Source of the DNA: Actinomycetota bacterium
Lineage (GTDB): Bacteria > Actinomycetota > Actinomycetes > Mycobacteriales > Mycobacteriaceae
Length of the DNA stretch: 64,000 bases
Direction: 5' to 3'
NCBI GenBank assembly: GCA_018268465.1
Contig: JAFDWN010000037.1
Coordinates: 107,241-171,240, forward strand
Of this stretch, positions 26,784 through 40,855 are shown piece by piece. The notes below the pieces were generated by a model. That model worked only from the letters and a program-made list of their open reading frames with translations, was not told the origin of the DNA and searched no databases. A program made the translations under genes and the position numbers. Position 1 is the stretch's first letter. Each line of letters opens with the position of its first letter.

Positions 26784-27905
26784 GTGGACCGACGCCCGCG
26801 ACGCACGCGGCTGCGGGTGGCACTGAGCGCCGTCGCGGTGACCGTCCTGACCGCCTGCGCGGGGCAGGCGCCTCCCGACGCCTCCCCCACCGATCTGCCC
26901 GCTGAAGCCGCCGGTCGCACCGGCACCTCCGGGACGTCGCTGACCCTCGACGGCAGACCCTGGTGGCCGATCGGCATCAACGCCTACCAGCTGGGCACGC
27001 GATGGGACATCAACGCGGGCTGCGGCGCCCAGGTCGACCTCGACGACTACTTCGGCAGGCTTCCGGAGAACTCGTTGACCCGGGTCAACGTGTACTCCAG
27101 CATGGCGGTCGACAAGGCGACGGGCGCACTGGATTTCCGGGCTCTGGACGCGGTGTTCGACGCGGCCGCCCGGCACCGGCAACTACTGGTCGCCGTCCTC
27201 ACCGGCGGCGAGGGGGCGTGCGAGTCCGGCTACTTCAAGGACCACGACTGGTATGTCCGCGGCTGGCGTACCGCGGTACCCGACGGTGTCCCGATGTCGT
27301 ACGCGAACTGGCTGGACACCGCGGTCAGACGCTGGGGCGCGTCACCGGCGCTGGCCGGGTGGACCGCGGTCGGTGAACCCGAACCGTCCAATTGCACGTC
27401 GCGGGAATGCGATTGGGAGTCCCGGGTGTGCCCGCCGGATTCGGCCGCGGTACTTCGCGAGTTCTTCGACGACGCCGGCGCGCGGATCCGCGCACTGGAT
27501 CCAGACGCGGTCATCTGGACCGGCCGCGCGGGAGGTGGCCAGTGCGGCTCGATGGGCGACGAGTATCAGATGGTCGGCGAATCCCCTGGCGTGGACGTGC
27601 TGGAGTTCCACGCCTACGACGACGGGCTGGCATTGCCGGGCGACTCGTTCAACGGCCTGCAGCGGCGTATCGACCAGGCCCGCGCGGTGAACAAACCCCT
27701 GGTGGTCGCCGAACTCGGGATCACCGCCGGTTCGTGTCTGTCGCTGCCGGCGCGGGCGGCGCAGGTGTCCGATCTGGTCGCCGCCCAGCGTGCGCGCGGA
27801 ACCGCGGGGGTGCTGTTCTGGTCCTTCGTGCCCGACCCGCGCAAAGACCAGTGCACACTCGACATCGGTCCGCGCGATCCGCTGTTCGCGATGGTGGGTC
27901 ACTGA
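26784..27905 (+). CDS. Lipoprotein with glycoside-hydrolase family 5-like fold
   Basis: A 373-residue exported protein. Residues 1-26 form a lipoprotein signal with the lipobox LTAC, and a short Pro/Thr-rich linker follows. The catalytic region has a beta-mannanase/cellulase look, with INAYQLG early, VGEPEPSN around residue 195 as the acid/base Glu, and LVVAELGIT near residue 307 as the nucleophile Glu. Its GTG start directly abuts the MBL stop (TAG-GTG), so it belongs to the mscR transcript. A target in arabinogalactan, lipomannan or alpha-glucan is possible but not shown. Confidence 0.75.
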   Translation: MDRRPRRTRLRVALSAVAVTVLTACAGQAPPDASPTDLPAEAAGRTGTSGTSLTLDGRPWWPIGINAYQLGTRWDINAGCGAQVDLDDYFGRLPENSLTRVNVYSSMAVDKATGALDFRALDAVFDAAARHRQLLVAVLTGGEGACESGYFKDHDWYVRGWRTAVPDGVPMSYANWLDTAVRRWGASPALAGWTAVGEPEPSNCTSRECDWESRVCPPDSAAVLREFFDDAGARIRALDPDAVIWTGRAGGGQCGSMGDEYQMVGESPGVDVLEFHAYDDGLALPGDSFNGLQRRIDQARAVNKPLVVAELGITAGSCLSLPARAAQVSDLVAAQRARGTAGVLFWSFVPDPRKDQCTLDIGPRDPLFAMVGH

Positions 27906-27912
27906 ATACCTG

Positions 27913-27976
27913 CGCCGAATGTGCGGTTGTTCGCGGGCATTCTCGCGGAATGCGTATAGCAACCGTGCTTTCGGCG
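27913..27976. repeat. 64-bp imperfect palindrome, copy A
   Basis: This unit runs from CGCCGAA to TTCGGCG and lies in the convergent gap between the GH5-like and SHOCT genes. Inside the outer 7-bp stem, GTGCGGTTG pairs with CAACCGTGC if G-U pairs are allowed, and a TTCGCG/CGCGGAA hairpin forms the core. Two further units of exactly the same length occur at 37625 and 38603. It may act here as a bidirectional terminator. Confidence 0.8.
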
Positions 27977-27977
27977 G

Positions 27978-28715
27978 TCAGTATCCCTCGAGGATGCGGC
28001 GCTTCTCCGCTTCGAACTCCTCCTCGGTCAGCGCCCCCGAATTCCGCAGCGCGGCCAACGTCTTGAGTTGTTCGAGCCGGATGCCTTGATCGGTCGGGAT
28101 GTAACCCGGTGAGGGCGGCGCCCCGAAGGTGAGCACGTCGGCCGTCGGCGGCGCCTCGGCCACCGGCTCGGCTCGCCTGCCGGCGGATATCGACCAGAAC
28201 ACCGCGCCGAGCAGTCCGAGCACGCTGAGCACGAACAAACCGGCGAACAGCCACACCAGCCAGCCCATCGAAGCGTCGTGACCGAAAGCCAGCCGGGGGT
28301 TGATGTACCCGTTGACGTTGCCGTCGGTGACGATGTCGTAGGCACCGTCCTGGGGTATCTGCGCCACCCACACCCGAACCCGCACGTCACTGTTGACAGT
28401 TGTTGTGCCACCGATACTTTCGGTCAATTCCGGTTCCGGAGCCCCGTCGGGCGGGACGATCGTCAACTGCAGGGGCGGGATGGGAAACCCGCCGCCCGGC
28501 TGGCCGGTGGTGAAGGTGTGGAAGCTGATCGTCACCTCCCCGGCGGGCAGCTGCAGCGTGGACCGCCCGGGGATCGGCACCTCACCGTAGGCGTTGAACT
28601 TGTCCAGGACGAACACGTTCAGCAGCAGCGACACCACGAACCCGGCGATCGACACCACCAGCGTCCCTATCGAGACGACGATGGCGACGCGCGCGGCGAG
28701 TCGTCCGGTGCTCAT
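27978..28715 (-). CDS. Two-helix membrane protein with C-terminal SHOCT domain
   Basis: A 245-residue protein with membrane helices at about residues 8-36 and 150-178. The extracytoplasmic region between them (~37-149) is beta-rich, with GRSTLQLPAGEVTISFHTF. The cytosolic C-terminus carries a SHOCT motif, LEQLKTLAALRNSGALTEEEF. SHOCT motifs often mediate oligomerisation. Function is unknown. It starts at ATG 28715 and is divergent from the LapA gene across 147 bp. Confidence 0.78.
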   Translation of the reverse strand: MSTGRLAARVAIVVSIGTLVVSIAGFVVSLLLNVFVLDKFNAYGEVPIPGRSTLQLPAGEVTISFHTFTTGQPGGGFPIPPLQLTIVPPDGAPEPELTESIGGTTTVNSDVRVRVWVAQIPQDGAYDIVTDGNVNGYINPRLAFGHDASMGWLVWLFAGLFVLSVLGLLGAVFWSISAGRRAEPVAEAPPTADVLTFGAPPSPGYIPTDQGIRLEQLKTLAALRNSGALTEEEFEAEKRRILEGY

Positions 28716-28862
28716 GGGCGAAGTGTGTCACGGGTGGGCACCGACCGCCCGGCCTCTGCCAGACCGCGCCGTGACCGATCCGATGCGTGCTTACCCGGTG
28801 CGACGGCAGCGTGGGGGCTACCGTTTGTAGTCGTCGATCGAGCGTGACCGCAGGAGGTTCCC

Positions 28863-29102
28863 ATGGCCCGCGACGATGTCGCCACACCCCCTGCCGGCGG
28901 GAAGGTTCGGCGGTTCGCGCTGCGCTACTGGGTGGCGCTGATCCTCGCCGCTCTGGCGGCGCTGTTCGTGGCCCAGAACCGTGATCGGGTCGACGTCCAC
29001 GTGCTGTGGGTGACCGTCAACTCGCCGATGTGGTTCATCCTCGTCATCATCTTCCTCGTGGGAATTCTCATCGGCCTGCTGCTGCGCCGGCGACGGAAGT
29101 AG
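28863..29102 (+). CDS. LapA-domain (DUF1049) small membrane protein
   Basis: A 79-residue protein with two hydrophobic helices (about 22-42 and 52-74), the LapA signature VAQNRDRVDVHVLWVTV, and a C-terminal RRRRK anchor. The family is linked to lipopolysaccharide/envelope assembly in Gram-negatives; its role in mycobacteria is unknown. AGGAGG at 28852-28857 fixes the ATG. It is followed after two bases by the methyltransferase gene, which implies one transcript. Confidence 0.85.
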   Translation: MARDDVATPPAGGKVRRFALRYWVALILAALAALFVAQNRDRVDVHVLWVTVNSPMWFILVIIFLVGILIGLLLRRRRK

Positions 29103-29104
29103 TC

Positions 29105-30196
29105 ATGCGCGAGTCCAGTATCGTCGTGCGCCCGCAGCCGGTGGGTAGCGCGTCCTACACCGCGAGTTCACGGCTGCAGGCCGCCGGACTGCGCCCGGCG
29201 ATCGCATTGTTCGAACGCGCCGCGCACGCCGTGGCGCTGCCCTCCGCACCGCAGCAGCCGATCGTCATCGCCGACTACGGCGCGTCCAACGGACACAATT
29301 CACTTCTGCCGATCTGCGCGGCAATCGCCGTGCTGCGCAAGCGAACCCGCAGTGATCATTCGATCCTGGTGACCCACACCGACCTGCCGGACAACGATTT
29401 CACCGCGTTGTTCCGAACGTTGTCCGACGACCCCGATTCCTATCTGCGCGTCGACCCGGCCACCTTCCCCGCGGCCGTCGGACGGTCGTTCTACACCCAG
29501 ATCCTGCCGTCCGGCACCGTCAACCTGGGTTGGTCGTCGTGGGCGGTGCAGTGGTTGAGCCGGGTGCCCGCCGAGATACCCGACCATGTGCAGGTGGCCT
29601 ACAGCGCCGACGAACGCGTGCGGACGGCGTTCGCCAGGCAGGCGGCCCATGACTGGCACGAGTTCGTCGCGTTCCGGGGGCGGGAGCTGTGCCCGGGCGG
29701 TCGCTTGGTGGTCATGACGATGGCCGTCGACGAGACCGGTGAGTTCGGCTACCGTCCGCTGCTGTCGGCGCTGATGGCCGAGCTCACCGAGATGGCGGCC
29801 CAGGGCGCGATCACCGAGGACGAACTGCGCCGGATGCTGATCCCGGCGGTGGCCCGCCGCGCCCAGGACTTCCTGGCGCCGTTCGCTCCCTCCGGGCTGT
29901 TCGAACGACTGGCAGTCGAACATCTCGAAGTGTTCAACGCCGAGGACCGATTCTGGGCGCAGTACCAGAAAGACAAGGACGCCAAGTCTTTCGGCGCCAG
30001 TTGGGCGGCGTTCTTACGCGCGGCGGTATTCCCGTCGCTGGCGAACGCGCTCACCGGGGGCGCCGACGGACCGCGGGTGGCGCCGCTATTCGGCCGGCTG
30101 GAGAGCGGTGTGGCGCAACGGCTGGCCGCCGCACCAGAGGAGACGCAGCTTCCGATGGCCCACGTCGTGCTCGTCAAGCGGCCGAAGGCCCGCTGA
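29105..30196 (+). CDS. SABATH-type SAM-dependent carboxyl methyltransferase-like protein
   Basis: A 363-residue protein resembling the salicylate/jasmonate carboxyl methyltransferase family best known from plants. The SAM motif is IADYGASNGHNSL near residue 62, with the later family features FYTQILPSGTVNLGWSSWAV and VNAED-like FNAEDRFW. It probably methylates the carboxyl of a small acid; the substrate is unknown. ATG 29105 is two bases after the LapA stop. It ends nine bases before the convergent Hsp70-like gene. Confidence 0.8.
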   Translation: MRESSIVVRPQPVGSASYTASSRLQAAGLRPAIALFERAAHAVALPSAPQQPIVIADYGASNGHNSLLPICAAIAVLRKRTRSDHSILVTHTDLPDNDFTALFRTLSDDPDSYLRVDPATFPAAVGRSFYTQILPSGTVNLGWSSWAVQWLSRVPAEIPDHVQVAYSADERVRTAFARQAAHDWHEFVAFRGRELCPGGRLVVMTMAVDETGEFGYRPLLSALMAELTEMAAQGAITEDELRRMLIPAVARRAQDFLAPFAPSGLFERLAVEHLEVFNAEDRFWAQYQKDKDAKSFGASWAAFLRAAVFPSLANALTGGADGPRVAPLFGRLESGVAQRLAAAPEETQLPMAHVVLVKRPKAR

Positions 30197-30205
30197 GCCC
30201 CCGCG

Positions 30206-31951
30206 TCAGGGCCCACCCCCGCCGGGTTGGGGGATGAACGGCGGCAACCCGGGGATCGTCGGGATCGGCGGGATGGTCGGAATCGTCGGAATGAGCGGTG
30301 GCCGAGTCGTCGGCGGGGGTTCGGTCGGCGGCGGCGGCACGACGCTGGTCGGCGGCGGCTCGACGCTGGTCGGCGGGGGTTCGACGCTGGTCGGCGGGGG
30401 TTCGGTCGGCGGCGGCGGCTCGACGGTAGCCGGCGGCGGCGCTTGCGTCTCGGTCTGCGGCGGCGCCTCTCGGGTGACCGTCTGGGTCTGCGGCGGCTGC
30501 GGTGTCTGTGCGGGCGGCGGCTCACCCGTCGTCGGGGGCACCTCGGTGGTCGTGGCCGCGGGTGGCGTGGTCGATGCCGGTGGCGCCGTCCCGCCCTCGC
30601 GGGTGAGGAATAGCAGCCCTCCGACCGCCGCGGCCAGGGCGAGCAGTCCAGCGCCGAGCAGCACCGCCTTGCGGCGATACCACGGAACCACCCCGGCTTC
30701 GCCGTCACCAGCGGACTCCTCCGCGCCGAACATCAGATCGGGGCGCGCGGCGGCCGGGCCGCCGGACCACGCGGTGACGTCGTCGTAGGGGTTCGGCTCC
30801 GGCACGTCGTCGGCCTGCGACCACGCCAGCGCGCCGACGCCGCCCGACGCGGCGGGTGGATCGACCGGCGCGGGGGCCATCATCGTGGCCGGCGCGGGCG
30901 ACATCGCGGTGGTGGCGTCGACGGCCGTGCTCCGTGCCGCTATGAGGCCCGCACCGAGGGCCGCGGTCAGCTCGGGCCTTGCGGTCGTGATCACCGGCAC
31001 CCGCAGGTCTTCGGACAGTGCCGTCGTGAGGAACGGAATACTCGCCCCGCCACCCGACGTCGCCACCGCCGCCAGGTTCTCGGGTCGAATCCCGTTGCGT
31101 TCCAGAGTGTCCCGTAGTGCTGCCCGGAAATCGGCGACCGCGGGACGGATCGCGTCCACCAGTTCGGTCCTGGTCAGCCGCACCTCGCCGCGATGGCCGG
31201 GAAGATCGGCGTACAGCGAGGTCACCGTGGCCGCGGACAACCGCTCCTTGGCGTCCCGGCATTGGGCGCGCAGGCGGCTCAGCGAGCCCAGGGCGGATGT
31301 GCCGCTCAGGTCCACCGCGCCCGCCGCGGACAGGTCGCCGACGACGTGGGTCAGCAATACCCGGTCGACAAGGTCACCGGACAGTTCTCGGTGGCGCAGC
31401 GTCGGGGCGACTGCTCGATATCCGCGGCCCACGTCCAGCAGGGTGACGCTGGTCCCGGACCCGCCGAAGTCGCACACCGCGATCACACCGCGGGCCGGCA
31501 CGCCCGGATCGTGCTGCAGCGCCGTCAGCGCCGCGAAGGCGTCGGAGACCACGACCGGAGTTGCCTGCCCACCGAACTCCCGCAACGCGGCCCGCAGAGC
31601 CTCGACGGCGCCGTCGCGCCAATGCGCCGGATGGGTGACCACCGGCGGCGGGGTCACCCCGCCGGCCGTCACCGCGCCCAGCATCGTCCGCAGCGCCTCT
31701 GCGACCAGCGCCGCGCCGTGGTGCGTGGAGCCGTCGGCGGCCACGATGGGGACCGGATCACCCACCCGGTCGACGAAGTCGGTGACGACGAGTCCGCGCG
31801 CGTCCAGCGCGGGATTCTCGGCGGGCAGCCCGACCTCGGGCGGGCGGTGACCGAACACCGTGATCACCGAGGTGCGCAGCACCGCGGTGCGCCCCGGCAC
31901 GACCGCGGCCAGGTTCGTCGCGCCGACCGACAGCCCGACCCCGTCCGTCAT
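30206..31951 (-). CDS. Hsp70-like ATPase-domain membrane protein with proline-rich exterior tail
   Basis: A 581-residue protein. Residues ~1-345 form an actin/Hsp70 ATPase domain with AVCDFGGSGTSVTLLD and AVATSGGGASIPFL. A cytosolic linker follows, then one helix near residues 440-462 (KAVLLGAGLLALAAAVGGLL). The tail of ~120 residues is Pro/Thr-rich and includes EPPPTSV repeats. No Hsp70 substrate-binding domain is present. It resembles Rv2264c. ATG 31951 is used, though ATG 31972 is in frame. It may be a cytosolic ATPase that signals through the membrane, or a wall-spanning scaffold. Confidence 0.8.
   Translation of the reverse strand: MTDGVGLSVGATNLAAVVPGRTAVLRTSVITVFGHRPPEVGLPAENPALDARGLVVTDFVDRVGDPVPIVAADGSTHHGAALVAEALRTMLGAVTAGGVTPPPVVTHPAHWRDGAVEALRAALREFGGQATPVVVSDAFAALTALQHDPGVPARGVIAVCDFGGSGTSVTLLDVGRGYRAVAPTLRHRELSGDLVDRVLLTHVVGDLSAAGAVDLSGTSALGSLSRLRAQCRDAKERLSAATVTSLYADLPGHRGEVRLTRTELVDAIRPAVADFRAALRDTLERNGIRPENLAAVATSGGGASIPFLTTALSEDLRVPVITTARPELTAALGAGLIAARSTAVDATTAMSPAPATMMAPAPVDPPAASGGVGALAWSQADDVPEPNPYDDVTAWSGGPAAARPDLMFGAEESAGDGEAGVVPWYRRKAVLLGAGLLALAAAVGGLLFLTREGGTAPPASTTPPAATTTEVPPTTGEPPPAQTPQPPQTQTVTREAPPQTETQAPPPATVEPPPPTEPPPTSVEPPPTSVEPPPTSVVPPPPTEPPPTTRPPLIPTIPTIPPIPTIPGLPPFIPQPGGGGP
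30341..30403. repeat. Three 21-bp tandem repeats inside the Hsp70-like gene
   Basis: Units 30341-30361, 30362-30382 and 30383-30403 start GACGCTGGTCGGCGG. The last two are identical and the first differs at two bases. They encode the heptad EPPPTSV on the minus strand. Because the unit length is a multiple of three, slippage would change tail length without frameshift. Confidence 0.85.
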
Positions 31952-32009
31952 GTCATCTGGGTACGACCTCATCGGTTACCAATCTCGCGCGGGACGGCGC
32001 GAATGTTAC

Positions 32010-33083
32010 TCAGCGGATGGTGCCCGCCCCCGCGATCAGCGGCAGATCCAGCGCGGTGACCCACCCCGGCGGCAAGGCGTTGACCGCCGGCACGGCGTTG
32101 AGGGCACGCATCCCGGTGGCCAGGCAGCCCGCCGTCGCCGCGTCACGGCCCGATCGATCGGTGAACCGGAACGCCGTCTCCTGGAAGATGCTCGGGGTGC
32201 CTTCGATGTCGACGCGGTAGACGTCGTTGTCGTTGCCCGAGGGCCAGTCGGGAGCGGCGTCGGCGCCGATCCGGTTGACATGTTCGAGCTGGATTCGCGT
32301 TTCACCCCGGAACACGCCGTTGATCGTGAACCGCACCGCGGCCACGTTGCCCGGCGCGATGACGCCCTTCGCGGTCTTGCGTTCCTCGGGAGTGACCCAC
32401 TTGTCCCACGTCGTGGTGATCTCGTCGAGCGTGATCCCCGCGGCGTGCGCGATCATCGGAACCGTCGCCCCCCACGCCAGGACGAGGATATCGGGCGTCT
32501 CGAACAGCGGCCGGTACTCCGGCGGCTTGCCGATGCCCATCTCGAAGTCATAGTCACCCTCGTAGTTGGTGTAGTCCAGCAGTTCCGAGGCGCGCACCCG
32601 CCGCACCTGCGAGCACAGCCCCATCAACGTCATCGGGAACAGATCGTTGGCGAAGCCCGGGTCGATACCGGTGGTGAAACACGACGCTCCACCACGTGCG
32701 CACGCCTCGGTGACGGGCTCGATCCAGCTGGGCGGGTTGAGATGCATCGACGGCCACACCCACGGTGTCATGGCCGTCGAGCACACGTCGATGCCGGCCC
32801 GCAGGAAGCGGGTGATGAGCGCGATGTTGTCCCCGGCGTGCGCCGCGGTGGGGCCGTAGTGCACCAGCGCGTCGGGACGCAGCGCGATGAGGGCGTCGAC
32901 GTCGTCGGTGGCGGCCAACCCCAGCGGGGCGCCCAGCCCGCAGATTTCGCCGACATCGCGGCCGACCTTGTCCGGGTTGCTCACCCCCACGCCGACCAGG
33001 TCGAAACGCGGATGTCCGACGATCTCGGCGATGACCATCCTGCCGACGAAACCCTTGCCCCAGACCACGATTCGTTTGGACAT
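32010..33083 (-). CDS. NAD(P)H-dependent amine dehydrogenase / dihydrodipicolinate-reductase-like protein
   Basis: A 357-residue Rossmann protein opening with MSKRIVVWGKGFVGRMVI (GxGxxG variant GKGFVG). It resembles the 2,4-diaminopentanoate dehydrogenase/DapB-like group found as several paralogues in mycobacteria. TGIDPGFANDLFP in the middle and a C-terminal substrate domain fit that family. ATG 33083 is chosen because GGAAGGCGG precedes it, and the 17-residue extension upstream is not family-like. The substrate is unknown. Confidence 0.8.
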   Translation of the reverse strand: MSKRIVVWGKGFVGRMVIAEIVGHPRFDLVGVGVSNPDKVGRDVGEICGLGAPLGLAATDDVDALIALRPDALVHYGPTAAHAGDNIALITRFLRAGIDVCSTAMTPWVWPSMHLNPPSWIEPVTEACARGGASCFTTGIDPGFANDLFPMTLMGLCSQVRRVRASELLDYTNYEGDYDFEMGIGKPPEYRPLFETPDILVLAWGATVPMIAHAAGITLDEITTTWDKWVTPEERKTAKGVIAPGNVAAVRFTINGVFRGETRIQLEHVNRIGADAAPDWPSGNDNDVYRVDIEGTPSIFQETAFRFTDRSGRDAATAGCLATGMRALNAVPAVNALPPGWVTALDLPLIAGAGTIR

Positions 33084-33192
33084 ATCCGCCTTCCGCCCGG
33101 CCCCCGCATCAATTCGGCCCTCCGCCAACACCATAGGCGGCGCACCGCGGTGATCCGGGGCGAACGGGGCGACCGGTTCGAACCCGACCTGG

Positions 33193-33741
33193 TCAGCGGT
33201 CGGCGCGGGTGCGGAACGTCATCCGAGACAGCATGCCGTCGCGAAGCGTCACGGTGTGCAGCAGCACGGCCGACACGTGCGCGGCGATCACCGCCACGAG
33301 GCTGAAGGCGAGGATCGTGTGGATGCGCCGCAGCACGCCGTACAGTTCGGCGTCGAACGGCGCGATCCGCGGTAAGTCCACGGCACCGAACACGACGATC
33401 GGATTCCCCGCCGCCGACAGCATCGCCCAGCCCACCAGCGGTTGCGCCAGGAGCAGTGCGTACATGGCCAGCTCCGAGAGCAGGACGACTTTGCGTTCCA
33501 GCGCGCCGACCGTCGACGGCAGCGGAGGCGGGCGCCGGACGAAACGGTCGGCGACCCGGTTGACGATCCGCACCACCACCACCGTCAAGATCAGTACCCC
33601 GAGGGCCTTGTGCACGACGAGCAGGGTGGCGTAGTCGGCCACGGAGTTGACCATGGCAACTCCGACGATCAGCGTGGTGAACACGAGCACCGCGGTCAGC
33701 CAGTGCAGGATCCGGGTCGGTCGCGAATACCGCTCGCTCAC
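33193..33741 (-). CDS. Cytochrome b561-like membrane protein
   Basis: A 182-residue four-helix cytochrome b with SRPTRILHWLTA at the N-terminus and haem-ligand histidine candidates His13, His44, His141 and His155. It should pass electrons from membrane quinol. The GTG start overlaps the stop of the catalase-like gene (GTGA), so the proteins are probably made together, and the cytochrome could feed electrons to the exported haem protein. Confidence 0.85.
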   Translation of the reverse strand: MSERYSRPTRILHWLTAVLVFTTLIVGVAMVNSVADYATLLVVHKALGVLILTVVVVRIVNRVADRFVRRPPPLPSTVGALERKVVLLSELAMYALLLAQPLVGWAMLSAAGNPIVVFGAVDLPRIAPFDAELYGVLRRIHTILAFSLVAVIAAHVSAVLLHTVTLRDGMLSRMTFRTRADR

Positions 33742-34838
33742 GACGTCACCTCCTCGACACGCACGGCGGGCGCTTCGGTGGCGGTCTCCTGGGTGCGCAG
33801 CCGATACGACGCGGCGTACGCGGCCGACCGCGCGCTGAGCAGCGGGTCCTCGGAGGGTTCGATGCCCGTCGGCAGCACCATGGGGTCGAAGTTGATGTCG
33901 CCGGCATTGCCGACACCATCGGTCTCGATTCCGGTCAGGGTGAGGATGCCGGCATCGACGTTCCTGCGGTTGGTCGGCCAGGGCAGCGTCGCGTCCCGGG
34001 TGGGATCCTCGGGCTGCCCCACGATCAGCACCAAACGCCAGCGCAGGGGTCCCGCGTCCAGCTGACGGATCAGGGCGTCGAACAGCGCGTTGCGCGGGTC
34101 GGTGCCGGTGCGTGGCGGCAGGGCACGTTGTAGCGGCTCGAACCACCACCGCACCGGTGTCCGCACCCCCGATGCGGATACCGCGTAGAAGGCGATCAGA
34201 CCCCCGAACCTGCTGTCGGCGAACCCCGGGCTCGGCGGCTTCGCCTTGATGAGGGCCATGGCCTTCGCGGTCTCGGGATGCGCGGCGAGAAACCGTGCCA
34301 TCTCCGCCGGATCGGGTTTTCCGGTGGCCGGGTCGGCCTCGGAGGCCAGCAGCCGGTCGTAGAAGCCCTGCGGCGAGTTGTCCGGGAAGACAGGGAGATT
34401 CAACATCGCCGTCCGCCACTGGCCGTCGCCGGGGAAGCCGAGCGCCAGCCCCAGCCCGCGTGCCGTCGCCGGCGCGTCGGCGACACCGGGATTGCCGCCC
34501 GACAGTGAGAAACGCCCGAGGACGGGTGTGCGGCCGACCTCGAAGACCGCGGCCTTCGACAGTGCACGCCCCTCGCCGCTGCCGTCGAAGTAGCCCGACA
34601 CCGCGACGCCCTTGGCATGGTTCCTCCGAAAGCCCGGATGCAGGCCGTTCACGCGCGCGAAGCCGTCCATGAAGGTTTGCGGTGTCAACCTGGCCGGACC
34701 GATCAGGTTGGCCGCCGCCAGCAGCGCTCCGGCATCGAGCGCGAGGAAGCCGCCGACGGCGGCCGCCCCGAGCAACAGCCTGCGCCGGTTGATTATGGGC
34801 CCGCCCCGATCGCCGACGTGCCGTCCCTGTGAAGTCAT
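33738..34838 (-). CDS. Exported catalase-family haem peroxidase, probable Tat substrate
   Basis: A protein of about 366 residues in the small catalase-like (SrpA-type) family. A twin-arginine-like leader (NRRRLLLGAAAVGGFLALDAG) precedes the domain. Catalase core marks include GFRRNHAKGVAVSGYFDGSGEG with the distal His. The segment DPTRDATLPWP resembles the family stretch near the proximal side. ATG 34838 is used; GGAGG touches it with almost no spacing, and an in-frame TTG at 34859 is an alternative. Coupling to cytochrome b561 suggests quinol-driven peroxidase activity outside the membrane. Confidence 0.82.
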   Translation of the reverse strand: MTSQGRHVGDRGGPIINRRRLLLGAAAVGGFLALDAGALLAAANLIGPARLTPQTFMDGFARVNGLHPGFRRNHAKGVAVSGYFDGSGEGRALSKAAVFEVGRTPVLGRFSLSGGNPGVADAPATARGLGLALGFPGDGQWRTAMLNLPVFPDNSPQGFYDRLLASEADPATGKPDPAEMARFLAAHPETAKAMALIKAKPPSPGFADSRFGGLIAFYAVSASGVRTPVRWWFEPLQRALPPRTGTDPRNALFDALIRQLDAGPLRWRLVLIVGQPEDPTRDATLPWPTNRRNVDAGILTLTGIETDGVGNAGDINFDPMVLPTGIEPSEDPLLSARSAAYAASYRLRTQETATEAPAVRVEEVTS

Positions 34839-34935
34839 CCTCCGAGATGACGTCTGCAAGGGCGGTGATAGTTCACGATCGGCCTGGTATCGAGAGTGAT
34901 CTGAATCACATCACCATAGACCCTACCGCGCAGCA

Positions 34936-36021
34936 CTACAGGTTCACCGCATCCTGCGGCGGGACCGTTTTGGTGGTATCCCGCAGGGCGCCCTTGAATT
35001 GCATTGCCCGATAAGGCCATCCGGTCGCCGTCCGCCATTGGGACACCACCAGGCCGACGCCGCCCGCCACGCCGAAGCGCGACCCCGGCAGCACATATCC
35101 CCCGTAGAGTTGGGCAACCCGGTTCCCGGCGTGATCCTCCCCCTGCCAGTCCGTTCCGACGACCGGGGTCTGCACCGGGGTGGTGTGCAGGTTGGCCACG
35201 GGTGACGCGACGACGCGATAGCCAAGCGCATAGCGCGACGACAGAAACCCGCCGAGGATCCACTTGCCCCGAGCAATCCGGCGCAGCGACAGCTCACCCC
35301 ATGTCTCACCGGCGGGGGTGATGGGTGTGGGCGTGGCACCCCACGACCAGCGCCCGTCGGCGAAACCCCAGCACCGGTAGAGGTTCCGGTCACCGATGAA
35401 GCGTGGACGGACGCGCCGCAGGATGATCCCCTTGTCGCGCTGGAACCCCGTCGACACCACGTACACCCACCCGTCGCCGGGGTCGTAATCCCACGACCAG
35501 CACTGGGCGTAGCCGCCGTGCAGATCGCCGGGGAATTTCGCATCCTCACCCAGATGCGTCCAGGAGACTCCGCTGTCCCCGGACCGCCAAATCTCGGTCC
35601 AGATGACGTTGCCGAGCCCGCGGTTGACGATCGCGTGCAGGTAGAGCGATCCGCCCACGCGCAGCAGATCCGACGGGATCACGGTGCTGATGCCGCCGCG
35701 GGTCCAGCCGGTGGACGCGTCGTCGTGGATGTAGTGCCACAGCTGGCGGGCATAGCCGGGATCGCCGCCGCCGGCGCGGTCGTAGGTGATCTCGTGAGCG
35801 GCGTCTCCGGAGCCGATCAGCAGGATCGGCGAACGCCAGTCCCCTTCGCCGACCCTGCGACCGGAGAAGGTGTCGCCGAACACCGAGACCAGCGCGCCGT
35901 TGGGCGCGATGACCGAGGCCCCCAGGTCGGTGCAGGTCGCGCCGAAGCGTTCGGTGATCCCGGGCCCCGTCAGGTCGGCGACTTTGCCATTGCGCAGTGG
36001 CGCCCTCGCGGGTGGGGCCAT
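34936..36021 (-). CDS. DUF4185 protein 1 (GH183-like)
   Basis: A 361-residue protein of the DUF4185 family: DLTGPGITERF at the start, CTDLGASV, VSVFGDTFSG and DWRSPILL follow, then beta-propeller-like repeats such as GVSWTHLG and GDLHGGYAQCW. As I recall, this family includes endo-D-arabinanases (GH183) acting on mycobacterial arabinan. No signal peptide is visible from ATG 36021, which is odd for a wall enzyme; an alternative upstream frame is discussed in the findings. It lies 125 bp from the second DUF4185 gene. Confidence 0.82.
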   Translation of the reverse strand: MAPPARAPLRNGKVADLTGPGITERFGATCTDLGASVIAPNGALVSVFGDTFSGRRVGEGDWRSPILLIGSGDAAHEITYDRAGGGDPGYARQLWHYIHDDASTGWTRGGISTVIPSDLLRVGGSLYLHAIVNRGLGNVIWTEIWRSGDSGVSWTHLGEDAKFPGDLHGGYAQCWSWDYDPGDGWVYVVSTGFQRDKGIILRRVRPRFIGDRNLYRCWGFADGRWSWGATPTPITPAGETWGELSLRRIARGKWILGGFLSSRYALGYRVVASPVANLHTTPVQTPVVGTDWQGEDHAGNRVAQLYGGYVLPGSRFGVAGGVGLVVSQWRTATGWPYRAMQFKGALRDTTKTVPPQDAVNL

Positions 36022-36146
36022 CGGGTCGACTACCTGCCGAGTCTGCTCAACGCCGCCGCGGCGAACGGACCGCCGCTGCGGGTGCCGATGGCCGTCACGG
36101 TGGCCGTCCCTTCGCCGGCGGGTCGATACCCCAGACTATGTCGGGG

Positions 36147-37481
36147 TCAGCCCGTTGTGTTCGACAGCGTCGTGCGTAGCAGCATGACGCTGTAGTTCGA
36201 CCACAGCGACAGGGTGAAGTACAGGTCCTGACCCTTCGACCACGGATGGATGTACGGCGCGTAGATGCCGCCGGGGATGTCGGTGGTCTTGACGATGGTG
36301 GCGGCCTTGCTCCACGGCCCCTCGGGTTTGTCCGCCGTGCGCAGCACCACGTCGTTGAGGGTGTTGGTGTAGAGCATGACGAATTTCTTCAGGTAGTCGT
36401 TCCAGGCCACCGACATCTCGCTGCCGGGCGCCCACACCACCTGGACCGCCAGGAACGGTAGGCCCTTGATCCAGCCCAACGGCGTGTAGTACTCGTAGGC
36501 GGATTTGTCGGCCACGGAGTTCTCGGCGACGCGGTAGAGGAACGGCATGCCGCCGCGGCCCGCGCCGGTGCCGTAGGCGTAGACGTAGCCGCCGGAGCGC
36601 AGGTATGCGGCCATCTGGAAATTCTGGTCGCCCCAGACGAATTGGACGCCGGGCACGGTGTTGAACCAGCTCGGCCGGATGCTCGATTGCGGCACCGTCC
36701 AGGTTTCTCCGTTGTCGTCGGAGACCGCGACGGCGGAGAAGTTCGTCGACCACTGCCCGGGGTTGCCCCATTGGCTCACCGACATGAAGTTGACGTATTG
36801 CCTTGTGCCGACGGAGATCCCGGCCGTGGGGATCACGGTGACCTCGGTGGCCGCCAGGCCCAGGCTGCTGATCACCTGACGGGAGAAGTTGGTCCGGCTC
36901 GCCGAGATGACCGGGGACCCCGCATAGCGGTCGTTGAACCGCGTCGGCGGAATCGTCATCCCGTCGGACAGGTCGGTGTCGGCGCTGCGGAACAACGTGT
37001 TGTTGCGCCACTGCTGGTCGGGGGTGCTGCAGTCGCCGAAGGTGTCGCCGAAGGCGATCAGCACCTGTTTGTTCGCGCCGGTCTGGCCGTTGTCCCACAT
37101 GATGCCCAGGTCGGCGCCGGAGATGGTGAACCGCTGATAGGAGTCCGTGTTGGGTCCGGTCAGCCAGTCGACCACTGTGGCGGTCGCCGCCGACGGTGCG
37201 GCCGCGGCCCTGGCGGCGGTGTTGGGCGCCACGGCGGTGTCGGCCGCCTGTTCGGGCGTGCTGGTCACCCCGGCCAGGATCGCCGGCTTGCGCCCGATCG
37301 GCAGGTGCAGCACCGAGATGATCTGCGACAGCGACGGCGTCGCCGATCGCGAGGATGCGCTGGCGGTGGGCACCGAACACGGATCGGCGGCCGCCGGTGG
37401 CGCGGCGACGAGAGGGACGACGAGGGCGACCGCCGCCGCCGACGCAATCGACATCGTGGCGAGTCGCCGGGGGCCGGGCAT
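36147..37481 (-). CDS. Secreted DUF4185 protein 2 (GH183-like)
   Basis: A 444-residue protein with a Sec-type signal peptide (residues ~1-33, cleavage near PPAAADP), a low-complexity Ala-rich linker to ~100, and a DUF4185 domain. Domain marks are WLTGPNTDSYQRF, ADLGIMWDNG, IAFGDTFGDC, RNNTLFRSADTDLSDGM and the C-terminal YAPYIHPWSKGQDLYF. It is most like the third DUF4185 protein near 48 kb. It probably acts in the cell wall, perhaps on D-arabinan. It is divergent from the DUF559 gene across 260 bp that contain repeat copy B. Confidence 0.85.
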   Translation of the reverse strand: MPGPRRLATMSIASAAAVALVVPLVAAPPAAADPCSVPTASASSRSATPSLSQIISVLHLPIGRKPAILAGVTSTPEQAADTAVAPNTAARAAAAPSAATATVVDWLTGPNTDSYQRFTISGADLGIMWDNGQTGANKQVLIAFGDTFGDCSTPDQQWRNNTLFRSADTDLSDGMTIPPTRFNDRYAGSPVISASRTNFSRQVISSLGLAATEVTVIPTAGISVGTRQYVNFMSVSQWGNPGQWSTNFSAVAVSDDNGETWTVPQSSIRPSWFNTVPGVQFVWGDQNFQMAAYLRSGGYVYAYGTGAGRGGMPFLYRVAENSVADKSAYEYYTPLGWIKGLPFLAVQVVWAPGSEMSVAWNDYLKKFVMLYTNTLNDVVLRTADKPEGPWSKAATIVKTTDIPGGIYAPYIHPWSKGQDLYFTLSLWSNYSVMLLRTTLSNTTG

Positions 37482-37624
37482 GTCACACCTTTCGCAGGGC
37501 GCTTCGGGCGACTCGTCAGCGGATGAGCCAGAAGCGGGAACGATGTGACTCTAGTGACTGAAGTGATTGCTGCGCCAAATGAGGAGGGCAACCGGAATGG
37601 TTCCGTTACCGTGTCGAGACTCGC

Positions 37625-37688
37625 CGCCGCCGACTGCACGGTTGTTTGCGGGCTCTCTCGCGAAACGCGTACACCTTCCGTACGGTCG
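37625..37688. repeat. 64-bp imperfect palindrome, copy B
   Basis: This copy runs from CGCCGA to TCGGCG. It shares CGGTTGTT, GCGGGC, CTCGCG and GCGTA at the same offsets as copy A, with about 49 of 64 positions identical and no gaps. The paired arms CTGCACGG and CCGTACGG differ from copy A but still pair with one mismatch. It lies 54 bp upstream of the preferred DUF559 start; an apparent start at 37646 lies inside the repeat. Confidence 0.8.
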
Positions 37689-37741
37689 GCGAGGAAAAAT
37701 TGGTGCGGTCGAGGCACTCCCGGCCCGGTGACGATCGAGGA

Positions 37742-38596
37742 GTGCGCATCGTCGTCGCCACCGAAGTGCTCGCCAGCGGGGCCCTCACCCGCCGCGACCT
37801 CACCCGGCGGTACACCAAGGTGTATCGCAACGTCTACGTCCGCAACGATGCGGAAGTGACCGCGCTGGACCGGGTGCATGCCGCATGGCTGTGGTCGGGA
37901 CGGCAGGCGACGATGGTCGGGCACTCCGCGGCGCTGTTGCTCGGCAGCAAGTGGATCCCGGCCGACACACCCGTCGAACTGGTGCACCGCCGCCGCCCGG
38001 GCGCCAGGGGAATCCTGGTGCGTAGCGACCGGATCGCCGACGACGAGGTGTGCGTCCAGCGTCGGATCCGGTGCACCACGACGGCGCGCACGGCCTACGA
38101 CCTCGGCAGGCGGCTGGACGGGGAGGAAGGCGTGATCCGCATCGACGCACTGCTGAACTCGACGCGGGTCGGCATCGACGAGATCGCCTCTCTCGCGACG
38201 CGTTACCCGGGCGCCAGGGGAATCCGGCAGCTGCGCAGCACCCTGAGCCTGGTCGACGGCGGCGCCGAATCCCCGCAGGAAAGCAGGCTGCGGCTGCTGC
38301 TCATCCGATCCGGGCTGCCGCGACCCACCGTCCAGATACCGGTACGCGACGCGACCGGACGCGTGGTGCGCCGACTCGACATGGGCTGGCCCCGGTGGCT
38401 GGTCGCCGTGGAGTACGACGGTGCACACCACTGGACGGACCCGGTGCGGCATTCCGCGGATATCGAGCGCCTGGAGTTCCTCGCGTCGCTGGGCTGGACG
38501 ATCGTGCGGGTCAGCGCCACCCAGCTGCGCAGCCAGCCCCGCGCCGTCGTCGACCGGACGCGGAACGCGTTGCGGCGGGCTGGCTTTCCCGGGTGA
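37742..38596 (+). CDS. DUF559 (endonuclease-like) protein
   Basis: A 284-residue protein. The N-terminus RIVVATEVLASGALTRRDL resembles a winged AbiEi-like antitoxin/regulator region. The C-terminus holds a DUF559 PD-(D/E)xK-like fold with LDMGWPRWLVAVEYDGAHHW and GWTIVRVSATQL. Such proteins occur in many mycobacterial copies and resemble very-short-patch-repair nucleases, but no activity is known to me. GTG 37742 is preferred; starting at 37646 would add residues encoded by repeat copy B. Its stop is seven bases before repeat copy C. Confidence 0.82.
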   Translation: MRIVVATEVLASGALTRRDLTRRYTKVYRNVYVRNDAEVTALDRVHAAWLWSGRQATMVGHSAALLLGSKWIPADTPVELVHRRRPGARGILVRSDRIADDEVCVQRRIRCTTTARTAYDLGRRLDGEEGVIRIDALLNSTRVGIDEIASLATRYPGARGIRQLRSTLSLVDGGAESPQESRLRLLLIRSGLPRPTVQIPVRDATGRVVRRLDMGWPRWLVAVEYDGAHHWTDPVRHSADIERLEFLASLGWTIVRVSATQLRSQPRAVVDRTRNALRRAGFPG

Positions 38597-38602
38597 TACG
38601 CC

Positions 38603-38666
38603 CGCCGAAAGTACGGCTGTTCACGGGCTCACTCGGGAGACGTGTGCGGCAACGGTGCACTCGGCG
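38603..38666. repeat. 64-bp imperfect palindrome, copy C
   Basis: Bounded by CGCCGAA (38603-38609) and TCGGCG (38661-38666), it aligns without gaps to copy A at about 46 of 64 positions. It lies in the convergent gap after DUF559 and overlaps the last ~46 bases of the mmpL coding region, so the final ~15 residues of that transporter are encoded by the repeat. Confidence 0.8.
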
Positions 38667-40855
38667 CGGCGGCCGACAGCACGCCAGGGCTGCGGGGCCC
38701 ACCAGTTCAGGCGGCCGAGCACCTTCATCGAGGCGGGCAGCAGCACCATCCGCACCAGCGTCGCGTCGACCAGCACCGCCAGCGTCACCCCGACGCCGAA
38801 CATCCGCATGATCGACACGTGCGCGGCGATCAGCGCCGAGAAGGTGACCGCCATCAGCACTGCCGCGGCGGTGACGACCCGCCCGGTGTGGGCGAGTCCG
38901 AGGGCCACACTGTTCTCGTTGTCGGCGCGGGTCTGCCCGGAGGCCAACCAGAATTCGCGGATCCGCGAAATGAGGAAGACCTCGTAGTCCATCGACAACC
39001 CGAACACCAGACAGAACAACAACACCGGAACGCTCGCGACGACCGTGCCCGTGGGTGTGGTGCCGAATGCGCCCAGGTGGCCGTCCTGGAACACCCACAC
39101 CAGCGCACCGAATGCGGCGGTCAGCGATAAGACGTTGAGCAGCAGCGCTTTCAGTGGCAGGACCAGGCTGCCCGAAAGCACGAACAGCAAGACGAAGCTG
39201 ACCGCGCCGATGATCGCGAGCACGTAGGGCAGCCGTGACGTCACCGCGTCGGCGCTGTCGCGGTTGATCTGCGCCCACCCCGTCATCAGCGCCTGGCTGC
39301 CGTCGGGTACCGGCACGGCGTGGATGTCGTCGAGTTGCCGCTCCGATTCGGGCGTGTAGAGCGGCGCGGTGGAGTTGACCGTCAGGAATGCGCTGCCGTT
39401 CGACAGACCCGTTGCCGACGAGGGCGGTCCCGCCGGAGCACCACCGACGAATGCGCCAGCAGGCGAGGAGACCGCCGAAACACCCGGGACCCGGGACAGA
39501 TCCGCGGCGTAGCGGGTGAGATCGGCCGCCGACACGCCGGTGACGTCGGGCAGGACGACGGTCACGTCGGTCAGGGTGTTGACGGCGAAGCCCTCGCGCA
39601 GTTCGTCGCCGACCTGCCGCGCGCTGGCCGAGGCGGGCAGCAACCGGTCGTCGGGGTAACCGAATGCGACGCCCAGGAACGGCGCACCCGCGACCAGCAG
39701 CAGCGCGACGACCGCCAAGCCGATCGGAATTGCCCGCCGCATCACCGTTTTCGACCATCGGTACCAGAACGTCGCCTCCGCGGGCAGCGGTAGCGGTGCC
39801 GGGCGTCCGCGAAGGCGACGCACGGCCGCCCGCACATCCCAGCTGTCGAGCCGCGGTCCGAGCAGGACGATCACCGCCGGTGTCACCAGCATGGAGGCGG
39901 CCGCCGCGAACACCACGACGGCAACCCCGGCGTAGGCGAACGACCTGAGGAAGTTCATCGGGAACAACGCCAGCGCGATCATCGACAGCGACACCGTCGT
40001 CGCCGAGAACAGCACGGTCCGCCCGGCGGTGCCCATGGTGCGCGCCAGCGCATCGTCCTTTCCGGCGCCGGCGGCGAGTTCGTCGCGGAAACGGCTCACG
40101 ATCAAAAGCGTGTAGTCGATGGCCAGCGCCAGCCCCAGGGCAAGACTGAGATTCAGCGCGAACACCGACACCTCGGTGACGTAGGTCAGGACGCGCAAGG
40201 CGGCCATCGAGCCGACGACCGCGAAGACCCCGACGGTCAGGGGCAGCGCGGCGGCGAGCAGCCCGCCGAACACCCAGACCAGCACGGCGAAACTCACCGG
40301 TACCGCGATCGCCTCCATCACCAGCAGGTCTTTTTTGGTCTGGTCGACGATCTGGAGGTATCCCATGACATCACCGCCGGCCCGCACCGTCACCCCGTCC
40401 GGATGTGGCAGCAGCTCACTGAGCTCCCTGGCGTGCGACTGCGCGGCGGATTCCCCGCCGGATACCCCGGCGACGATCAGCCCGGTGTTCCCGTTCCTGC
40501 TGACGAGTGCGTGCGCGGCCGCCGGCGGCGCCGTCCAGGCCGACTGCACCGCGGTCACGTAGGGCAGGCGGGTCAGCGTCGCGACGATGTCGGCGGCTGC
40601 CGCCCGCGCGGCCGCGCTGTGGACGCCGTCGTCACCGGTGACGGCGATGACGACGTGCATATCGCCCTGGCCGTGCGTCGTCGCGAGCAGGTGGGAAGCA
40701 CGCCAGGACTCCGACGTGGGGTCACGAAACCCGCCGTTGGACAGATCGCCGACGACCGGCGCCCCGAACACGGCCGCGGCCGTGAGCACCAGCAGCGCGA
40801 CGGCGATGATCCGCCGGGGTGCCGTGATCGCGAGGCGGGCGACTGCCTGCAGCAT
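38621..40855 (-). CDS. MMPL-family RND transporter
   Basis: A 744-residue membrane protein with the MMPL two-repeat plan: helix 1 (RRIIAVALLVLTAAAVFG), an exterior loop to ~165, five or six helices at ~180-360 including LALAIDYTLLIVSRFRDEL, a second loop, and a second bundle with FGLSMDYEVFLISRIREF. The IDY and MDY motifs mark the proton path. The ~740-residue length is closer to YdfJ/ActII-3-type exporters than to the ~950-residue lipid-specific MmpLs. The last residues (AECTVAAHVSRVSP) come from repeat copy C. Confidence 0.88.
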   Translation of the reverse strand: MLQAVARLAITAPRRIIAVALLVLTAAAVFGAPVVGDLSNGGFRDPTSESWRASHLLATTHGQGDMHVVIAVTGDDGVHSAAARAAAADIVATLTRLPYVTAVQSAWTAPPAAAHALVSRNGNTGLIVAGVSGGESAAQSHARELSELLPHPDGVTVRAGGDVMGYLQIVDQTKKDLLVMEAIAVPVSFAVLVWVFGGLLAAALPLTVGVFAVVGSMAALRVLTYVTEVSVFALNLSLALGLALAIDYTLLIVSRFRDELAAGAGKDDALARTMGTAGRTVLFSATTVSLSMIALALFPMNFLRSFAYAGVAVVVFAAAASMLVTPAVIVLLGPRLDSWDVRAAVRRLRGRPAPLPLPAEATFWYRWSKTVMRRAIPIGLAVVALLLVAGAPFLGVAFGYPDDRLLPASASARQVGDELREGFAVNTLTDVTVVLPDVTGVSAADLTRYAADLSRVPGVSAVSSPAGAFVGGAPAGPPSSATGLSNGSAFLTVNSTAPLYTPESERQLDDIHAVPVPDGSQALMTGWAQINRDSADAVTSRLPYVLAIIGAVSFVLLFVLSGSLVLPLKALLLNVLSLTAAFGALVWVFQDGHLGAFGTTPTGTVVASVPVLLFCLVFGLSMDYEVFLISRIREFWLASGQTRADNENSVALGLAHTGRVVTAAAVLMAVTFSALIAAHVSIMRMFGVGVTLAVLVDATLVRMVLLPASMKVLGRLNWWAPQPWRAVGRRAECTVAAHVSRVSP

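Follow-up and report, generated by a model that had tools for sequence, protein, structure and literature searches.

A dispersed family of 64-bp mycobacterial palindromes associated with a DUF559-type nuclease gene

The stretch of DNA analyzed here (64,000 nucleotides from a member of the Mycobacteriaceae, assembly GCA_018268465.1, contig JAFDWN010000037.1, positions 107,241 to 171,240; hereafter, the window) contains three imperfect palindromes of 64 bp, designated copies A, B and C. They were noticed in an earlier, sequence-only reading, which suggested a mobile palindrome resembling a miniature inverted-repeat transposable element (MITE), a terminator family or a structured binding site. 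Copy A stands alone between two convergent genes. Copies B and C lie on either side of a gene that was absent from that reading; its predicted product couples an AbiEi-like region to a REase_MTES_1575/DUF559 domain, and we refer to it as the nuclease gene. The relationship between the palindromes and this gene is the subject of this report. The features are collected in the table.

Table. Palindromes and neighboring genes in the window.
Feature	Coordinates	Strand	Basis
Palindrome copy A, solitary, between convergent stops	27913..27976	+	Covariance model match; none at the same junction in five relatives
Palindrome copy B, upstream member of the nuclease unit	37628..37691	+	Register shifted by 3 bp; covariance model and folding; bracketing pattern
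Palindrome copy C, downstream member of the nuclease unit, extending into the 3' end of the MMPL open reading frame (convergent)	38603..38666	+	Covariance model match
Nuclease gene, 284-aa product: AbiEi-like N-terminal region and REase_MTES_1575/DUF559 domain, GTG start	37742..38596	+	Pfam; PADLOC AbiEi, 9.8e-10; 34-sequence alignment
Gene ending 7 bp ahead of copy A, without Pfam match	26784..27905	+	
SHOCT-domain gene, convergent, stop 1 bp past copy A	27978..28715	-	Pfam
MMPL-family gene, convergent, running into copy C	38621..40855	-	Pfam
DUF4185 gene on the far side of copy B, divergent from the nuclease gene	36147..37481	-	Pfam

The placement of the units given in the sequence-only reading holds for A and C; copy B begins at 37628 rather than at 37625. 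In the earlier register, copy B had a folding z-score against shuffled sequences of -0.1, and in the new one it has -3.3 (A, -5.1; C, -2.6). With B so placed, all three copies start with CGCCGA and end with TCGGCG, as had been claimed. Ungapped identities out of 64 are 49 for A–B, 46 for A–C and 45 for B–C, the last falling just under the range of 46–49 reported before. A covariance model built from the three copies gives them scores of 87.9, 83.8 and 81.2 bits; elsewhere in the window it finds the reverse strands of the copies at 29–34 bits, and the next site has 16.2 bits. The pattern CGGNTGTTNNCGGGCNNNCTCGNG is found at zero mismatches only in copies A, B and C, and with up to three mismatches it has five matches in the window vs. 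1.3 expected. At the gathering score, Rfam returned no matches in the window.

The contexts of the three copies differ. Between the two convergent stops at site A there are 72 bp, made up of 7 bp, the 64-bp unit and 1 bp. Copy C starts 6 bp after the stop of the nuclease gene and overlaps the end of the convergent MMPL open reading frame. Copy B is located between two divergent genes, 50 bp ahead of the nuclease start; the earlier statement that all copies lie at or beyond gene ends is thus correct for A and C and incorrect for B. The MMPL reading frame terminates within hairpin C (38621–38666), and 25 of its 29 homologs align only to residue 721–730 of 744; hairpin C appears to supply the stop codon of this frame. 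An empty B/C site was sought through the neighbors of these homologs (61–68% protein identity): no hairpin was present in any of the 29, and none had the window's other neighbors. Beyond copy B, two DUF4185 genes lie side by side on the minus strand (34936–36021 and 36147–37481).

The palindromes belong to a much larger family. In the genome that contains the window (6.9 Mb in 72 contigs), the three-copy model identified 11 further places at E <= 1e-4. With a refined model of 43 sequences, 17 places were found at E <= 2.1e-7; each had already been among the sequences from which the model was built. Of 297 genomes sampled from the genus, 244 matched the refined model at E <= 0.001; in these searches the best 17 hairpin candidates and the best eight protein candidates per genome were scored, some hairpin matches are both strands of one place, and where a genome has weak matches numbering one to three, these are perhaps look-alike hairpins only. 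A sample of the order yielded matches in 54 of 298 genomes. Beyond the genus, G518 (handles in G denote genomes, those in L loci), which belongs to the same family, had at least 17 matches and the remaining matching genomes had one to four, the best at 4.9e-7; the three-copy model had no match in 16 genomes of other families. The genome and genus searches proposed in the sequence-only reading have accordingly turned three copies into a genus-wide family.

Relatives of the nuclease protein are also widespread, with a match in 295 of the 297 genomes of the genus and at least eight in some. The 72 genomes with a nuclease match of about 1e-93 or better all carry hairpin matches, with a median of 13 among the matches listed; for the other 225 genomes, the median among those listed is 2 (Mann-Whitney p 4e-24, the kinship of the genomes being ignored). 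In two loci (L189 in G004 and L190 in G278), the hairpin occurs in tandem runs with a spacing of 93–95 bp and identical neighbors. Three others (L035, L036 and L037) contain short GC-rich palindromes of the GTGCGGCTGGCCGCAC type that match the three-copy model weakly and are possibly another repeat family.

The stems of the family covary. The long stem comprises 20 outer and 3 inner pairs; across the alignment of 43 copies, 82.1% of its cells are paired vs. 73.0% after shuffling, and sliding the partner by 1–3 columns leaves at most 43.6% paired. Of the 23 pairs, 18 have changed on both sides. There are 100 double-change cells compared with a shuffle mean of 35.8, a count that none of 500 shuffles reached. 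Outer stems are exchanged wholesale among copies, parts of the loop (ACTCG....GCGTAC) are recurrent, and the ends of the unit are themselves base-paired. For the inner stem there are two alternatives: CGGG/CTCG pairs in 68.3% of cells, and R1 in 61.7%. The covariation of the long stem bears out the earlier suggestion of selection on pairing, and the further hits go beyond chance level and conserve the length of the unit. Chance as the origin of the window palindromes is excluded by the genome-wide family together with the covariation. The covariation is equally compatible with an RNA hairpin or a DNA hairpin.

Members of the family are concentrated at gene ends, a bias for which the sequence-only reading had proposed a check. 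We studied 75 hairpins chosen by model score, copies beside nuclease genes among them, using gene calls from a purpose-made codon-based caller that misses many DUF559 genes. Measured from the hairpin edge, a called stop falls between -30 and +20 bp in 64 of the 75, most commonly at a distance of 6 bp; upon random placement in the same loci, 74 of 1500 positions were near a stop. By junction, 32 copies are convergent, 30 tandem and 7 divergent, with 5 having one side unknown and 1 lying within a called gene; the baseline for convergence in the window is 10 of 49 adjacent gene pairs. The slot 3' of the isocitrate lyase (aceA-like) gene held a strong hairpin in all 13 mycobacterial loci printed, with types assigned by eye: ten are GGCCCCGCCC (L073 and L074 diverged), two are GAGCAGACGCAAA (L082 and L101), and one belongs to the 64-bp family. 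The hairpins of this slot are located about 140 bp before position 5001 in L073–L101, and the GAGCAGACGCAAA type may be another repeat family. Judged by their sequences, unrelated hairpins in one slot behind the isocitrate lyase gene would fit a role at 3' ends.

These observations raise an alternative: the palindromes could be vertically inherited, bidirectional terminators lacking a U-tract (TRIT-like) that are selected at 3' ends, with the nuclease gene merely terminator-flanked. The positions near stops, the covarying stems and the filling of the aceA-like slot by one of three unrelated hairpin types are all favorable to this view, as is the average identity of 94% among four orthologous aceA-slot copies from different genomes. 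We nevertheless consider it unlikely. No U-tract was found: over the 12 bases that follow the hairpin on its two sides, T averages 19% and 18% (104 copies), and a canonical intrinsic terminator was rejected because this tract is missing. Copy B occupies a divergent junction. Terminators would also leave four of the observations presented below unexplained: the hairpin-free junctions, a copy identical at 63 of 64 positions, the matched, lineage-specific palindromes around one gene family in several regions, and the missing matched palindromes at 214 other control genes.

Comparison of related junctions points to insertion of solitary copies. Both neighbors of site A are kept in 14 loci. Five of these relatives (52–63% protein identity) have stops separated by 4, 9, 12, 12 and 13 bp and no hairpin. 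The other nine (L343–L348, L352, L354 and L356) have a gene-like stretch of about 1.4 kb in the convergent gap; hence, this junction took more than one insertion. A second case is found in G312, where one solitary palindrome agrees at 63 of 64 positions with the one that lies upstream of this genome's nuclease gene; the flanks of the two are unrelated. In G307, which is 90–91% identical at this junction, there is no hairpin, and the two stop codons overlap. We infer that the difference between hairpin-bearing and bare junctions is a gain and not a loss. Within ten genomes, the mean identity among copies is 69–84%, except for 93% in G278, the genome with tandem repeats.

In domain searches the nuclease protein does not match a known transposase. 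In the C-terminal part of the window protein, Pfam gives 35.3 bits for REase_MTES_1575 (below the cut-off of 38.2) and 24.3 bits for DUF559 (above the cut-off of 20.6); the similarity to AbiEi is in the N-terminal part. Among 34 homologs, REase_MTES_1575 matched all 34 and DUF559 32, and the only other Pfam matches were AbiEi_1 (two proteins) and IclR_C (one). No HuH/Y1 (IS200/IS605-like) transposase domain was found by Pfam in these homologs. Residues E176, E180, D213, D226, H230 and D240 are invariant across the 34 sequences, and we take them to be those expected for an active PD-(D/E)XK-like site. A sequence search of the PDB with the nuclease protein had 0 matches. At the window locus, no AbiEii toxin gene adjoins the nuclease gene, whose neighbors are the DUF4185 and MMPL genes. 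A phage-borne unit was rejected, as a relative of the nuclease was present neither in viral contigs (17 pattern matches, none confirmed) nor in phage records; a plasmid-borne unit was rejected as well, with all six plasmid matches below 40% identity.

Is the arrangement of the window, with hairpins on both sides of the nuclease gene, peculiar to this locus? Hairpin pairs in other genomes are often about 960 bp apart, like B and C. The 297 genomes of the genus were searched by protein alone, and the 30 best nuclease loci were then checked for hairpins in a locus-by-locus search from which the tally was read by hand. Hairpins were present on both sides in 24 of the 30 and on at least one side in 29; if G000, G011 and G014, whose flanking copies had been used in the model, are left out, the counts are 21 and 26 of 27. 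The flanking hairpins share the orientation of the gene in 50 of 53 instances.

The two palindromes of a locus also tend to be of the same type. We compared upstream and downstream flanks in 70 loci, a non-random set consisting of the 30 best loci and 40 more picked by hand from the protein list (down to 48% identity) before their flanks had been seen. The mean alignment score was 27.8 within loci and 11.9 between loci, a difference not attained in 10,000 permutations. For 29 of the 70 loci, the best match to the upstream flank was the downstream flank of the same locus, which ranked within the top three for 41. Shuffled flanks score no higher than 15, and 48 of the 70 loci exceed this value: 25 of 31 at a protein identity of 58% or more, 7 of 17 at 54–58%, and 16 of 22 below 54%. 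Control genes, taken from the window and from loci surrounding hairpins, exceeded it in only 7 of 221 cases, comprising three views of the same nuclease gene and four fadB2-like (3HCDH) genes beside hairpins. The idea that matching flanks are a trait of genes in general was rejected on the strength of these negative controls.

Palindrome types are often lineage-specific; five loci (L225, L250, L261, L271 and L289) each have their own type on both sides. Across loci, cross-side flank similarity rises with protein identity (Mantel rho 0.45, 0 of 2000 permutations), and it falls back in the nine locus pairs that exceed 90% protein identity. One type, CACGCTCCAGGTACGGAAAA, was followed through 148 genomes. 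With up to three mismatches, 17 genomes match, a result that we disregarded because a reversed control pattern also matches many genomes at this threshold; with up to two, only G081, G138 and G123 do. The nuclease genes of L290 (G081) and L289 (G138) each lie between two CACGCTCCAGGTACGGAAAA copies, and these genomes have one and two solitary copies elsewhere, respectively. The nuclease gene that lies between two copies in G123 is shortened and matches at its two ends only. This genome has two such CACGCTCCAGGTACGGAAAA pairs, and their origin in separate insertions was rejected: they represent one locus within an inverted contig duplication. Close to its two ends, contig 34 carries stretches of about 4 kb (L305 and L306) that are 100% identical and inverted, which is probably an assembly effect.

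The correlation between palindrome and protein, along with the recurrent loop sequence and the AbiEi-like N-terminal region, would be accommodated if the palindromes were operators of the AbiEi-like protein, with the upstream copy serving in autoregulation and the solitary copies as other binding sites. Of the alternatives weighed here, we find this one the least credible. Operators belong at promoters, and most copies are found at 3' ends, often convergent ones; the junctions differ by an entire hairpin unit; and a second copy is located behind the stop of the nuclease unit.

The nuclease unit itself occupies different places. The 30 loci represent 13 combinations of neighbors, or 9 regions once shared neighbors are merged, and 28 of them lie within a convergent gene pair. 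In L246, L250 and L251 the nuclease gene is inverted in the same fadB2–PPK2 slot, and in L245 and L252 the unit sits between the PPK2 and CMAS genes. In five of eight named mycobacterial loci, the CMAS and PPK2 genes are tail to tail with gaps of -11, -4, 2, 3 and 15 bp, which leave no space for a hairpin. The same region has a hairpin and a degenerate nuclease gene in L074 (M. peregrinum), a nuclease gene without a CMAS gene found there in L076, and a different stretch of 565 bp in L082.

Could recombination between abundant hairpins, as in a cassette system, move the nuclease gene as passive cargo? Hairpins in direct repeat on both sides would permit such an exchange, and the inversion of the unit in one slot in three genomes would be consistent with it. 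We judge this improbable. Varied cargo would be expected, and the only other bracketed gene among the 221 controls is the fadB2-like gene beside hairpins. Moreover, the tail-to-tail CMAS/PPK2 junctions and site A offer no resident hairpin for recombination, and solitary copies, too, differ between relatives.

The explanation that we favor, and consider probable on the sequences compared here, is a dispersed, REP-like family of mobile palindromes (REP, repetitive extragenic palindrome) tied to a DUF559-type nuclease in place of the RAYT (REP-associated tyrosine transposase). The comparisons that speak for it are the family itself, its covariation, its 3'-end placement, the bracketing in several regions, the matching of palindrome types to nucleases, the junctions with and without a palindrome, and the single near-identical pair. 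Among the options of the sequence-only reading, the mobile palindrome has therefore fared best, with empty sites, the 63/64 copy and the bracketing of the nuclease gene to its credit; the terminator gains from the 3'-end position and loses from the missing U-tract. In the mechanism that we envisage, solitary palindromes would insert as discrete units of about 64 bp right behind stops, often at convergent genes. The carrier unit would be a stand-alone nuclease gene bracketed by its cognate palindromes in direct orientation (here B, nuclease gene and C). The nuclease would recognize the folded or cruciform palindrome and cut or nick it; repair or replication would then copy the palindrome to a new 3'-3' junction, whether by cut-and-repair or by replication-linked copying being a guess. 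Once inserted, the hairpin may be tolerated, or it may be useful as a two-way 3'-end hairpin. Mobilization of the palindromes by the nuclease is, on this account, what we infer from their association.

A number of observations weigh against this explanation. The whole case is comparative. Some genomes are rich in hairpin matches and have no close nuclease match (G055 and G097, at least 17 each); one of the 30 best loci, L242, had no model match; and 22 of the 70 nuclease loci are without matched flanks. The window's own gene has a within-locus score of 28, with its downstream copy ranking only 9th of 70. The 30 loci are not 30 independent cases, as 17 are in one region (isocitrate lyase, 3HCDH fadB2-like, CMAS umaA-like and PPK2 genes). 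At the G312 junction, G086, which is 88% identical overall, carries a different hairpin (45/64); the site has been hit on two occasions, or else a hairpin was replaced or lost. Among the ten genomes compared, near-identical copies seldom share a genome, so movement is rare and the activity low or old. A target-site duplication of at least 3 bp at the exact boundary was found in 0 of 104 copies, and a longest-common-word test gave p 0.73; at the G086 junction a repeated YTAG is possible, but stop codons occur there anyway. A classical MITE was rejected because this duplication is missing; of the two signs of insertion that the sequence-only reading proposed to look for, empty sites were found (site A and G307) and duplications were not. 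A structure prediction from a two-row alignment was poor (mean predicted local distance difference test score, 43) and does not support the PD-(D/E)XK assignment. Finally, PD-(D/E)XK-type nucleases are not known to join strands, so a helper or a repair step would be needed.

How does the family compare to known systems? RAYT genes are flanked by REPs, and co-evolution of REPs with TnpA-REP is described in PMC8266576 and PMC3733652; the word stem mycobacteri- does not occur in the main text of the latter. In both systems, short imperfect palindromes are dispersed in extragenic DNA, and the gene of the enzyme lies between cognate palindromes whose divergence is correlated with its own. They differ in the enzyme, which is AbiEi-like with a REase_MTES_1575/DUF559 domain here and a HuH (IS200/IS605-like) transposase in RAYTs, and in the unit, about 64 bp here vs. 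20–40 for REPs. The GTAG or CGTC tag was not seen in the mycobacterial family: over the 20 positions next to each end of 104 copies, the commonest base nowhere exceeds 43%. The family resembles MITEs in that its palindromic units are short and are linked to a gene that is possibly mobile, and in the empty sites of relatives; it departs from them in that the whole unit is one hairpin and is not partnered by a known transposase. Integron attC sites are imperfect palindromes beside gene 3' ends as well; here, many copies are solitary, and there is one cargo family. In contrast to AbiE toxin-antitoxin systems, with which the N-terminal region is shared, the AbiEi-like region is joined to a nuclease domain. 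Repeated hairpins at gene ends are also reported from M. tuberculosis, where the TRIT terminators are said to have been described by Gardner in 2011 with RNIE. RNIE is cited and used in a passage of PMC3526491. Part of PMC2267715 describes Myt-1, a structured stem-loop family of M. tuberculosis with 72 nt and 75 members. Both TRIT and Myt-1 are repeated mycobacterial hairpins, compared here by description only, and may overlap the 64-bp family; the portions of the descriptions available to us state neither a link to a nuclease gene nor empty sites.

In the literature, our search, confined to open-licence papers, yielded no account of a palindrome/nuclease system of this kind. To judge by titles and the beginnings of abstracts, none of the DUF559 papers deals with a link to palindromes, and the papers matching palindrome words are unrelated by their titles. 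These results suggest an undescribed kind of mobile DNA. With appreciably more reservation, we propose that it may constitute a new class of mobile element, in which palindromes of about 64 bp would be copied to gene ends by a stand-alone AbiEi–DUF559 nuclease whose gene each lineage keeps between two cognate palindromes: an analogue of REP/RAYT that arose independently from a restriction-type nuclease, existing as many co-diverged nuclease/palindrome pairs across mycobacteria and supplying 3'-end hairpins. If so, unrelated enzymes would have come to mobilize palindromes on at least two occasions in evolution, and a role would be found for a mycobacterial gene family that is very common and whose role is unclear. 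The spread of a repeat hairpin would be directly testable with the purified enzyme and short DNA hairpins. Mycobacteria are often said to be poor in canonical terminators; such a system would explain how they acquire and exchange hairpins at the 3' ends of their genes.

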